From an uncultured Candidatus Saccharibacteria bacterium (lineage in GTDB: Bacteria; Patescibacteriota; Saccharimonadia; Saccharimonadales; Saccharimonadaceae): a DNA stretch of 64,000 nucleotides. Location of the stretch: the NCBI GenBank assembly GCA_947165465.1, contig CAMVAM010000004.1, forward strand, positions 40,623 through 104,622, given 5' to 3'. The notes beneath the pieces were generated by a model. It was not told where the DNA came from and ran no database searches. It was given only the letters and a program-made list of their open reading frames with translations. The position numbers and the translations under genes are program-made. Of the stretch, positions 58,471 through 62,273 are shown piece after piece (the first letter of the stretch is position 1; every line of letters begins with the position of its first letter).

Positions 58471-59331
58471 TTAATCATTAAACATCTGCTTGCGACGGCG
58501 ATGTTTTTTAATTGATTTAAAAATCGAATAAACCAAAGTAATTACAGTTAAGAATAAAAGCACCATAAACCAAATTGGGCAACAAATCACGGTTTTCTCG
58601 ATTACGGAGACTTCGTCGAGATATGTGACGGTTTGTTTGATTGTGTAAATCCCAAGTGGCGAAAAGCCATCGAGGTCGCGAACAATATGACGGGTAGTTT
58701 CCGGCATAATTGTTTCTTCTATCGTGTTGTTTTCATTGCTCTTTGGGTAAATCGGAGTCGAAGAAAAAACACTTCTCACCTCAACGGCAACTCTAGCAAT
58801 ATCGTGAACGTTACCTTCATTAGTGACAGAAGCTTCCACTCGGATTGGCAGATTAGTGGCAAAGCCAGGAATGGTATTCTCAACTACCTTGCCGCCATGT
58901 TCGGTTTCACCGGCAACCTTGGCAAAGATGAGGCTAGCCATTTCAAATACATTCTCGACCGCAATACCTTCCACATTGCCGACATCAGCATCGGAGGTAA
59001 CGAGAAGCGCCGCATATTGACCACCGGCCGGAGCACTTTCCGGTACATTGATTGTGTAATTAATCTTTACGGATTCGTTAGGCTTTAATACACCAGAATC
59101 TTTGTCTAGAGTAATCCATTTAGTAATCAAGGTCCTATCATTCTCAGTCAAAAAGTCAGCGCTATATTCGTCGTCGGTAACCGAATAAGAAGAAACCGAT
59201 ACTTTGAATTTAAAATCAGAAGCCGAGTCAGCCGGATTGGAAATCGTAAGAGTGCCGTGATAGATTTCACCAGCATTTAATTCAATTCGTTTAGTCATCG
59301 GAGAGATGACAAATGAGCTGTCAGAATTCAC
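58471..59331 (-). CDS. DUF916-like surface protein with a C-terminal membrane anchor and no signal peptide
   Basis: 286 residues. Two Ig-like domains (SSFVISPMTKRIELNAGEIYHG..., PIRVEASVTNEGNVHDIARVAVEV) resemble DUF916/WxL-interacting proteins. A C-terminal span (CPIWFMVLLFLTVITLVYSIF) and basic tail KSIKKHRRRK follow. GTG at 59331 is preceded by AAGGAGG, and an in-frame TAA lies four codons upstream, so no N-terminal signal peptide can be added. The basic tail predicts an outside N-terminus, which would need export without a signal. Either the signal was lost or topology is unusual. Confidence 0.75.
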   Translation of the reverse strand: MNSDSSFVISPMTKRIELNAGEIYHGTLTISNPADSASDFKFKVSVSSYSVTDDEYSADFLTENDRTLITKWITLDKDSGVLKPNESVKINYTINVPESAPAGGQYAALLVTSDADVGNVEGIAVENVFEMASLIFAKVAGETEHGGKVVENTIPGFATNLPIRVEASVTNEGNVHDIARVAVEVRSVFSSTPIYPKSNENNTIEETIMPETTRHIVRDLDGFSPLGIYTIKQTVTYLDEVSVIEKTVICCPIWFMVLLFLTVITLVYSIFKSIKKHRRRKQMFND

Positions 59332-59359
59332 CGAACCTCCTTAGATATATATAATATAT

Positions 59360-59365
59360 ATTATA
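59360..59365 (-). promoter_or_regulatory. Promoter (TGATATAAT) of the DUF916-gpsA-helicase operon
   Basis: The extended -10 sits in an AT-only palindrome between nrdG and the GTG at 59331. Confidence 0.55.
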
Positions 59366-59371
59366 TCACGA

Positions 59372-59935
59372 TTATTCGATGCTTAGTATCTTACCGGTAC
59401 CTTGTTCTAGGTGGAGTAATCTCTGATTCTTTGAACCGCGGTAGCGAAGGCTAAGGTCTTTAAGGCCAATAATGAATGGTCCGTCAATCAAAGCATCTAA
59501 GGATTTTAGAAATTCCCATTGTTCGCCGCCAGCTTTCTGAATCTGTTCGTAAGTAAAGCCGGAAAAACTCCAGACATTCCAACCAAGCTCCTTGCGTACC
59601 CAATCAGCAATTTCTTTACAGGTGGCCGGCTGTACGAATGGCTCGCCACCACAGAACGTGAGCCCGGCCTGGCCTTTAAATTTACTTAGCCTTTCTTCAA
59701 TCTCACTAATTTCAATTAGGAAACCACCAGCATAGTCCCAAGTCTCTGGGTTCTGGCATTCCTTGCAATGATTTGGGCAACCTTGTGTCCAGACTACCGC
59801 CCTAAGTCCATCGCCGTTTACAATATTGTCGTGTTCAAGCGGACCGGACAAGCGAATCATGCCCTTAGGAGGCTGCGGAGCGACTTTCATCCGCTCTACA
59901 GCCATTTTATCCCAATCTACTTTTGGCTCTGCCAT
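59372..59935 (-). CDS. nrdG: Anaerobic ribonucleoside-triphosphate reductase activating enzyme
   Basis: 187 residues. The radical-SAM cluster motif is TQGCPNHCKECQNPETWDY (CxxxCxxC), followed by the SAM-binding GLTFCGGEPFVQP. The N-terminus carries ~25 extra residues. NrdG uses SAM and a 4Fe-4S cluster to put the glycyl radical on NrdD. The ATG overlaps the nrdD stop by one base, so both are made together. Its clear conservation contrasts with the missing radical motif in NrdD. Confidence 0.93.
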   Translation of the reverse strand: MAEPKVDWDKMAVERMKVAPQPPKGMIRLSGPLEHDNIVNGDGLRAVVWTQGCPNHCKECQNPETWDYAGGFLIEISEIEERLSKFKGQAGLTFCGGEPFVQPATCKEIADWVRKELGWNVWSFSGFTYEQIQKAGGEQWEFLKSLDALIDGPFIIGLKDLSLRYRGSKNQRLLHLEQGTGKILSIE

Positions 59936-62130
59936 TATTTACCCTTTGCGCAGTTACAAACTTTTTCGAAAGGCACATCGCCTTCGAGACGGCCACAGTG
60001 TGGGCAACGCTCGCCCTTAATGATGCCAGAGAAGCCACAGACTGGGTCGCGGTCGACCGGATGGTTTACAGAGCCATAGCCGATACCACAGTCGTGCATC
60101 TTGCGGATTACAGCTTCAAAGGCAGCAATATTCTGAGAAGGATCACCATCGAGCTCGATATAAGTGATATGACCGGCATTACAAAGGTTGTGATACGGAG
60201 CCTCAATTTCAATCTTGTCGAAGGCGGAAATTGGGTAGTAAACCGGTACGTGGAATGAGTTAGTGTAGAATTCCCTGTCGGTTACACCTTTAATCTTACC
60301 GAATTCTTTGCGGTCAATCTTGGTAAATCTACCGGCAATACCTTCAGCTGGGGTAGCAAGGAGCGAGAAGTTGAGATTATACTTCTTGCAGTAGCTATCG
60401 CATTTCTCGCGCATGTGAGTAATGATATCGAGACCAAGGTCACGTGCATCCTCATCTTCACCATGATGTTTGCCAGTCATAGCAACCAAAGTCTCAGCAA
60501 GGCCAATAAAACCAATCGAAAGTGTACCATGCTTGATTACATCACGGAGTGTATCATTTGGACCAAGCTTTTCGGAACCGAACCAGTTCCCTTGCCCCAT
60601 AAGAAACGGGAAGTTGCGGACGTGTTGGTTAGCTTGGAATTCAAAACGCTCGAGCAATTCGTCTCTAACTAAATCTAGTTTTTCATCGAGTTCGTGATAG
60701 AAGCCATCCCAATCGGCTTCTTTACGCTCGCCTAAGCAAATACCATGCTTAATGCCGATACGAACAATATTAATAGTCGTAAAGGACAAGTTTCCACGTC
60801 CAGTGACGATACCATCAGATTCTGGGAATACAGAAGCAAATACGCGCGTACGACAGCCCATGGTTGCGATTTCAGTGCGGTAATCGCCCTTCTTGTAATA
60901 CTTCAAATTGTATGGGGCATCGATAAAACAGAAATTCGGGAACAATCTCTTGGCGGAAACTTCCATCGAGCGCTTAAAGATATCATAGTTCGGATCTCCC
61001 GGATTATAGTTGATACCTTCCTTGACCTTCAAGATTGAAATTGGGAAGATTGGCGTTTCGCCCTTACCAAGGCCATTCTCGGTAGCTTGAAGAAGATCAA
61101 GCGACACAAGACGACCGGCCGGAGTAGTATCGGTACCGAAATTGATCGAAGTGAATGGCACCTGCGCACCAGCACGAGAGTGCATTGTGTTAAGGTTGTG
61201 CACAAATCCTTCCATCGCCTGGAGAGTTTCTCTCTCAACATCTTCATTTGAAGCATCAATAACTTCTTGCGGCCATTTATCCTTGACAAGTGTCTTATCA
61301 TCACCGTAGTTATAATTATCTTTTACAGCGAGTTCGAGTTTTTTACCAGTAAACTTATTGTATTTCTCGAGATTGCGCTTCAAAGCTTTGCGGTAAGATT
61401 TGTTTACACCGGGAGCCATTGCATAGTCGAAATTTGGAATAGATTGGCCACCATGTTGCTCGTTCTGGTTAGCTTGGAGCAAAATCGCAGCAAGTGCACC
61501 ATAAGAGCTGATCGAATTTGGCGTACGAAGATGACCATGGCCGGTATTAAAGCCACCATTTTCGAACATCACGAATGGATCGGATTGGCAGCAAGTCAGT
61601 GTACCGGTAGCATAGAAATCAAGGTCGTGAATATGGATTTCACCCGCATCATGAGCGGCAGCAATATCTGGACGAAGAAGCAAGGATTTAGCAAATACTT
61701 TTGAACCTTCTGCGCCGAATTGAAGCATCTTGCCCATGGCAGAGTTACCATCAACATTTGCATTTGAACGCTTCACATCTGAATCTTCTGAAGCATCAGC
61801 ATGGGAAATCGTGCGATAAATCATCATAAGATCGGACTTTGCAGTACGGATTCTTGAACGCTCTTGGCGATAGCGAATGTAAGCACGAGCAGTCTTTTTA
61901 AACGAAGACTCCATCAAAACCTCTTCGACTATGTCCTGAATCTGCTCGACGTTTGGAGTACGCGCAGTGATTTTTTCGTTAGCTCTCTGAACAACCTTCT
62001 CTGCGAGTGCCCTTGCGCGGTCCGCCTTGAACTCCTCAGTCGCAAGCCCAGCCTTCGCGATGGCGTCAACGATTTTTTCAGGATCGAATTTTACAATCTT
62101 CCCATCCCGCTTAATAATTCTTTTGAACAT
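59935..62130 (-). CDS. nrdD: Anaerobic ribonucleoside-triphosphate reductase, apparently lacking the C-terminal glycyl-radical motif
   Basis: 731 residues. An N-terminal ATP-cone (KRIIKRDGKIVKFDPEKIVDAI), a class III barrel with LTCCQSDPF, the thiyl-cysteine segment ATMGCRTRVFASV and GTLSIGFIGLAETLVAMTG are present. The C-terminus runs YGSVNHPVDRDPVCGF, then ERCPHCGRLEGDVPFEKV, and stops after CNCAKGK. In relatives, RRxTGY with the radical glycine and ~25 more residues follow at this point. One of the four zinc cysteines (Asp in DRDPVC) also seems replaced. AAGGAGG precedes the ATG. The upstream region has tandem NrdR-box-like sites. Family certain; activity in doubt. Confidence 0.92.
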   Translation of the reverse strand: MFKRIIKRDGKIVKFDPEKIVDAIAKAGLATEEFKADRARALAEKVVQRANEKITARTPNVEQIQDIVEEVLMESSFKKTARAYIRYRQERSRIRTAKSDLMMIYRTISHADASEDSDVKRSNANVDGNSAMGKMLQFGAEGSKVFAKSLLLRPDIAAAHDAGEIHIHDLDFYATGTLTCCQSDPFVMFENGGFNTGHGHLRTPNSISSYGALAAILLQANQNEQHGGQSIPNFDYAMAPGVNKSYRKALKRNLEKYNKFTGKKLELAVKDNYNYGDDKTLVKDKWPQEVIDASNEDVERETLQAMEGFVHNLNTMHSRAGAQVPFTSINFGTDTTPAGRLVSLDLLQATENGLGKGETPIFPISILKVKEGINYNPGDPNYDIFKRSMEVSAKRLFPNFCFIDAPYNLKYYKKGDYRTEIATMGCRTRVFASVFPESDGIVTGRGNLSFTTINIVRIGIKHGICLGERKEADWDGFYHELDEKLDLVRDELLERFEFQANQHVRNFPFLMGQGNWFGSEKLGPNDTLRDVIKHGTLSIGFIGLAETLVAMTGKHHGEDEDARDLGLDIITHMREKCDSYCKKYNLNFSLLATPAEGIAGRFTKIDRKEFGKIKGVTDREFYTNSFHVPVYYPISAFDKIEIEAPYHNLCNAGHITYIELDGDPSQNIAAFEAVIRKMHDCGIGYGSVNHPVDRDPVCGFSGIIKGERCPHCGRLEGDVPFEKVCNCAKGK

Positions 62131-62219: not shown

Positions 62220-62235
62220 ACCCTACATTTAGTGT
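62220..62235 (-). promoter_or_regulatory. NrdR box 2 (downstream)
   Basis: ACCCTACATTTAGTGT matches the palindromic NrdR consensus ACACTATATATAGTGT at 13 of 16 positions. It starts 33 bases from box 1, about three helical turns, as in known tandem NrdR sites. Confidence 0.6.
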
Positions 62236-62244
62236 CTTGCATCA

Positions 62245-62273
62245 ATAATACTACACTATATATAGCATTTCAA
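62245..62273 (-). promoter_or_regulatory. nrdDG promoter
   Basis: TTGAAA (62268-62273), a 17-base spacer and TATTAT (62245-62250) on the minus strand. NrdR box 1 fills the spacer. Confidence 0.6.
62253..62268 (-). promoter_or_regulatory. NrdR box 1
   Basis: ACACTATATATAGCAT agrees with the NrdR consensus at 14 of 16 positions and lies between the -35 and -10 of nrdD, where bound NrdR would block polymerase. Confidence 0.7.

Follow-up and report, generated by a model that had tools for sequence, protein, structure and literature searches.

The sole ribonucleotide reductase (RNR) of a gut and rumen clade of Saccharibacteria is best read, from its gene sequences, as an enzyme whose two pieces are encoded separately, a distant gene supplying the one that bears the radical. 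The window analyzed here (64,000 nucleotides of a contig from an uncultured Candidatus Saccharibacteria bacterium) encodes a class III reductase, NrdD, that lacks the glycyl-radical motif in its own chain, and the motif is found instead on a separate chain encoded in the same genome. We consider it very probable that the two proteins constitute a split class III RNR whose radical subunit works in trans. The grounds for this reading are the sequences themselves, their complementarity, their co-occurrence across genomes, shared NrdR sites, purifying selection, and a genome in which no alternative was found; from these we infer complex formation, activation by NrdG and catalysis by the split enzyme.

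The nrdD-nrdG locus of the window

The locus contains the following features (window positions, all on the minus strand):

59935..62130, minus: nrdD, a class III RNR catalytic core without the glycyl-radical segment, 731 aa, with ATP-cone, NxN flap, barrel and zinc module
61858..62130, minus: N-terminal ATP-cone of NrdD (Pfam ATP-cone, 9e-23)
60853..60855, minus: Cys426 codon; this residue of MGCRTRV is the presumed thiyl-radical cysteine and does not vary among aligned relatives
59989..60054, minus: zinc module VDRDPVCGF...CPHCGR, with Asp at the first ligand position, universal across these genomes
59935..59961, minus: variable Cys-rich tail VCNCAKGK and stop, the split junction, replacing LRRITGYLVG...
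59372..59935, minus: nrdG, a radical-SAM activase with an extended N-terminus, as is typical in the truncated clade
62220..62235, minus: NrdR box ACACTAAATGTAGGGT, upstream of nrdD (G000:C4:102842-102857)
62253..62268, minus: NrdR box ATGCTATATATAGTGT, upstream of nrdD, 17 bp from the other box (G000:C4:102875-102890)

The window NrdD possesses the catalytic core of a class III RNR and its thiyl cysteine, Cys426, which is invariant in 30 aligned relatives, both truncated and full-length. Pfam NRDD matches the protein at 8e-178 over model positions 2-529 of 562, and NCBIfam PRK07111 matches it with 1008 bits over positions 1-709 of 746. The chain stops just past its zinc module, its C-terminus reading ...NHPVDRDPVCGFSGIIKGERCPHCGRLEGDVPFEKVCNCAKGK-TAA, with ...CPHCGRLEGDVPFEKVCNCAKGK as the final residues before the nrdG overlap. 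Relatives that are 81-88% identical over the NrdD core run on as ...FERLRRITGYLVGSLDRWN..., and the C-terminal continuation of these relatives is FERLRRITGYLVGSLDRWNDAKKAEE..RVKH. The claim of an earlier note on this DNA that NrdD stops short of its glycyl-radical motif is borne out by the early end of model coverage and by the relatives that continue; its further statement that no other frame across the nrdD-nrdG junction supplies the motif agrees with a scan of 59001-60400, in which no RRxTGY-type motif was present in any of six frames. The window copy is the only NrdD in the genome (785 kb, 98% complete).

The same note had correctly seen Asp in place of one zinc Cys, but this is no anomaly: Asp occupies the first zinc-ligand position in all 136 NrdDs examined (29 full-length and 107 truncated), and its presence in the full-length enzymes argues against decay. 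A proposed alternative radical site, the glycine of the CGF sequence, was not supported. An AlphaFold model of the window NrdD, built with 30 close relatives as input, reached a pLDDT of 49.5, too poor for placement of the radical site.

The nrdG gene is intact and coupled to nrdD, as had been proposed: its product matches TIGR02491 with 129 bits (cut-off 126), and its start overlaps the nrdD stop as TAATG. NrdG of the truncated clade carries an N-terminal extension of 20-40 residues, ..DWHKISLEKLAKQLETPEGYIRLSGP; in most full-length relatives of genus g1 the protein begins near MxIRLSGP and has no extension, and in genus g11, which has a full-length NrdD, an extension is present too. The NrdR-like boxes of the earlier note were also confirmed, upstream of nrdD, and similar pairs stand before the gene for the separate radical protein described below. 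Paired boxes with a 16-17 bp spacer precede 91 of 93 nrdD genes tested and 68 of 68 free-protein genes (median pair score for the latter 34, best shuffled 29), so that the free-protein genes display the two promoter boxes, about 15-17 bp apart, that are characteristic of the NrdR regulon. Among known NrdR-box pairs, spacers of 15-16 bp are the commonest and those of 14-17 bp form the short class (PMC12051234). The best NrdR-box match in this genome (one mismatch) precedes the free-protein gene and overlaps its likely promoter. A further NrdR-like site, at C2:93743, lies inside a coding gene region and was taken as chance.

A separate glycyl-radical protein

When the NrdD C-terminus of a full-length relative was searched against this genome, one protein was identified (E 7e-19):

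G000:C8:15066-15503: free-standing glycyl-radical protein, 145 aa, between polA and mutM on contig C8

Residues 85-117 of this protein form an intact RNR glycyl-radical domain, FERLRRITGYLVGTLDRWNDAKKAEE..RVKH. (A plain pattern search of the genome for the radical motif gave chance-level matches only.) The protein covers positions 709-744 of PRK07111 and 532-562 of NRDD, and together with NrdD (1-709 and 2-529, respectively) it tiles both models with almost no overlap. A radical carried on a separate spare-part protein, one of the options listed in the earlier note, is therefore strongly supported. The YfiD-like domain that the note suggested looking for does exist as a separate protein, but is of the RNR type rather than a member of the YfiD/PFL family: PF01228 (Gly_radical, PFL/YfiD) has no match anywhere in the genome, the free protein included, and the domain matches NRDD models instead.

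No Pfam family, ATP-cone included, matches the first 80 residues of the free protein, and a KRDG-type nucleotide-binding motif is absent from its N-terminus (alignments A1 and A4). An AlphaFold model of a phage homologue (L204; pLDDT 72) contains two short strands and four helices, where an ATP-cone is b-b-a-a-a-a, and the six best PDB matches in a fold search with that model were all ATP-cone proteins (NrdR and RNRs), at weak E-values of 0.6-2. Profile comparison between the N-domain and the ATP-cone was weak, so the case for the likeness comes from secondary structure and the fold search. The N-domain is likely a degenerate ATP-cone without KRDG, which would fit an origin of the free protein through internal deletion of an nrdD copy.

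Co-occurrence, selection and competing explanations

Within a genus sample of 174 genomes, mostly MAGs or drafts, 90 encode a truncated NrdD and 59 are listed with a full-length one. The free protein was found in 84 of the 90 truncated-NrdD genomes versus 19 of the 59 full-length genomes listed (Fisher p 1e-15), and in 52 of 52 versus 12 of 32 when only genomes at least 93% complete are counted. The six truncated genomes without a detected free protein are all 71-92% complete, and 8.1 such absences would be expected from incompleteness. In a family-wide sample the protein was present in 12 of 12 truncated genomes, none of which contained a fused glycyl-radical copy, and among 380 genomes sampled from across the phylum it had full-length matches only in genera g1 and g11. 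Class I/II RNR (PF02867) was found in none of 99 genus genomes (a control matched in 11 of 14), nor was any other glycyl-radical protein detected in the genome of the window with PF01228; a working RNR here should therefore depend on the free protein, barring an import of deoxynucleosides. Genomes of the truncated clade do not have the free-protein gene linked to nrdDG, so the case for a partnership is made by co-occurrence and regulation.

The same distribution bears on a second explanation, in which the free protein just repairs oxygen-cleaved NrdD while the truncated NrdD uses another glycine or its terminal Cys pair. The free protein does coexist with an intact full-length NrdD, in the 19 listed g1 genomes and in genus g11, and at least two Cys occur in 88 of 107 truncated tails (some as CxC), where they could serve as a zinc ligand or redox pair. 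This explanation nonetheless appears improbable, since the truncated genomes hold no intact copy to repair and yet contain the free protein in every case at 93% completeness or above. The tails vary, moreover, with eight lacking Cys altogether, and we know of no class III enzyme that uses another glycine.

As reduced episymbionts, Saccharibacteria scavenge many metabolites, and with no other RNR present one might picture a dying nrdD, in cells that make no deoxynucleotides de novo and import them from the host bacterium, with the free protein as a relic. The truncated NrdD core is, however, under very strong purifying selection. Its dN/dS is 0.024 versus 0.081 for full-length relatives (0.205 for the short truncated tail), and that of the free protein is 0.059 in the truncated clade (0.029 for the glycyl core) versus 0.143 elsewhere, all of these being figures that rest on few pairs with usable dS and serve as guides only. 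The free protein is thus more constrained in truncated genomes than alongside a whole NrdD, the catalytic residues are invariant, and both NrdG and the NrdR boxes are retained. In a tree of 93 NrdD cores truncation is a single change (SH-aLRT 96), and the truncated form is conserved, with no further decay, across 90 genomes of the genus. A dying gene is very improbable, and the recent truncation suggested in the earlier note is not supported, the truncation being one old event followed by such conservation.

On the same tree, presence of the free protein requires 16 changes. Those free proteins that belong to the truncated clade group as a single clade with a long stem. All 36 of their genes lie at polA, mutM or both, but none of the 34 genes that coexist with a full-length NrdD does; the latter have no conserved context and varying neighbours. 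The tree and the fixed site together indicate that an accessory gene went to fixation and seems to have become obligatory. The free subunit was probably at first a YfiD-like spare part that full-length NrdD could do without, and would have become obligatory once one lineage lost the NrdD C-terminus.

A role for the free protein in some glycyl-radical enzyme other than NrdD is very unlikely; its gene is indeed unlinked to nrdDG, but no further enzyme of that kind was detected in the genome, its domain matches NrdD models and not those of PFL/YfiD, and NrdR boxes stand before it. Lastly, an assembly or frameshift artefact concealing an intact C-terminus, which the earlier note had itself raised and to which the preponderance of MAGs might point, is effectively excluded, because 90 genomes, drawn from many studies, share this end, as do most of 80 related rumen and gut loci (including the named strain Nanosyncoccus alces, L044) while NrdDs of 81-88% identity continue, and the motif lies in no frame.

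Carriers in phages and plasmids, and relation to known systems

Two scans of IMG/VR yielded 125 loci that were examined, of which 107 contain a free ORF of <220 residues with the glycyl-radical motif. Neither NrdD nor NrdG was detected in the fetched flanks of 99 of these 107, and about 30 of 39 whole contigs, some of 80-268 kb, lacked an NrdD core, although such records may be fragments. Adjacent split pairs in which NrdD ends at the same point were found in L212, L229, L396/L402 and L397. An unannotated plasmid record of Subdoligranulum variabile (OY725842.1; L253:1538-4665) holds another such pair, with truncated nrdD, a glycyl-radical ORF of 54 aa and nrdG following one another in that order in a compact operon, and a further one occurs in Eggerthella phage EL753P1 (OP172808.1; L251:3741-7200), where NrdD ends after the zinc module and a separate glycyl ORF is present. 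Matches on C. difficile plasmids were rejected as split cases, as their NrdD is full-length. Some phages appear to encode or supply such a split class III RNR, and the loci suggest that phages may provide a host RNR with their own radical subunit.

Several further observations were made on these loci. The viral mini-proteins (L204-L208, L209-L250 and L356-L433) are free RNR-type glycyl-radical proteins of about 50-150 aa, mostly without nrdD nearby, and have at least three kinds of N-terminus: ATP-cone-like, an MTITVxGG domain (alignment A6) and a short GEGV type (A7). Large-terminase and portal-like genes, recognized by eye, mark L205 and L207 as phages; each has a glutaredoxin-like gene (CESCAGN / CEGCSGN; L205:9636-9929 and L207:6308-6613) near the one for the free glycyl-radical protein, and L205 has a DHFR gene as well. 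The EL753P1 NrdD has an apparent intein between MGC and RTRV, and its glycyl ORF has a frameshifting interruption of about 5 nt exactly between RRI and TGY, so that this ORF is broken, frameshifted or otherwise processed. A phage homologue of the free protein (L237:5001-5264) loses frame right after RRITG, possibly through an intron in the radical motif, and in a 238-kb viral contig (L219) the NrdD match falls in several pieces over about 4 kb, which points to more than one intein or intron.

We lean, with some reserve, towards a broader picture in which exchangeable class III glycyl-radical subunits with several unrelated N-domains form a widespread system, so far undescribed. Phages and plasmids of gut and rumen would circulate these subunits, and the host NrdD would use them as spare parts or be taken over by them. 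NrdD would have become dependent on them after losing its own domain in several lineages (the Saccharibacteria clade, the Subdoligranulum plasmid, the Eggerthella phage and several viral contigs).

In the split enzyme as we envisage it, NrdD would contribute the ATP-cone, barrel, thiyl cysteine and zinc module, and the 145-aa subunit would dock at the split point, its radical loop RRITGYLVG entering the barrel where the NrdD C-terminus is missing. NrdG would install the glycyl radical on Gly94 of the free protein, probably after docking, and the radical would then pass to Cys426. The degenerate ATP-cone-like domain and the NrdG extension are probably for docking; the former may also matter for activation, as the N-terminal half of YfiD does, a half that matters for activation rather than catalysis (PMC8683613). 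Such an arrangement would make radical transfer between RNR chains directly testable and offer a natural two-part system for studies of NrdG activation. The intermediate states are preserved, with the domain fused, fused alongside a free copy, or present as a free copy only. Automatic annotation would label such NrdDs as ordinary and leave the small partner hypothetical or unannotated.

The closest structural reference is Prevotella copri NrdD (PDB 8p23-8p39), which shares the ATP-cone, NxN flap, barrel, MGCRTRV cysteine, zinc module and NrdG partner; NrdD of this type matches the window protein over residues 1-714. In P. copri the zinc site precedes a buried in-chain loop with Gly711 near Cys416 (PMC11226230), whereas here the loop is on a separate polypeptide; by analogy, the split would lie between zinc module and radical loop. 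A separate C-terminal module is also seen in the split class II RNR NrdJa/NrdJb, whose catalytic chain is likewise encoded by two genes (PMC9669993), but that B12 enzyme has no glycyl radical and differs in class and module. Split RNRs of class II, but none of class III, are described in PMC9669993, and we found no description of the latter in the open-access literature.

The PFL spare parts YfiD/GrcA and T4 Y06I are, like the free RNR-type protein, small separate proteins of bacteria and phages, in each of which the C-terminal half is a copy of a large enzyme's glycyl-radical domain. They differ in serving PFL and in having a disordered N-terminus, whereas the present protein is of RNR type, is ATP-cone-like and would be obligatory in the truncated clade. 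By homology the free protein falls outside the YfiD/GrcA family (PF01228), matching NRDD instead, while the YfiD-like principle of a free radical domain alongside an intact parent enzyme is seen in the g1 and g11 genomes that retain full-length NrdD. A spare-part role has been validated for PFL only, with others considered possible (PMC8683613). The Saccharibacteria pair, not previously described as far as we found, would be a class III RNR variant that uses this principle, and gives a sequence-level answer, for a DNA-precursor enzyme, to the possibility of spare parts beyond PFL (PMC8683613).
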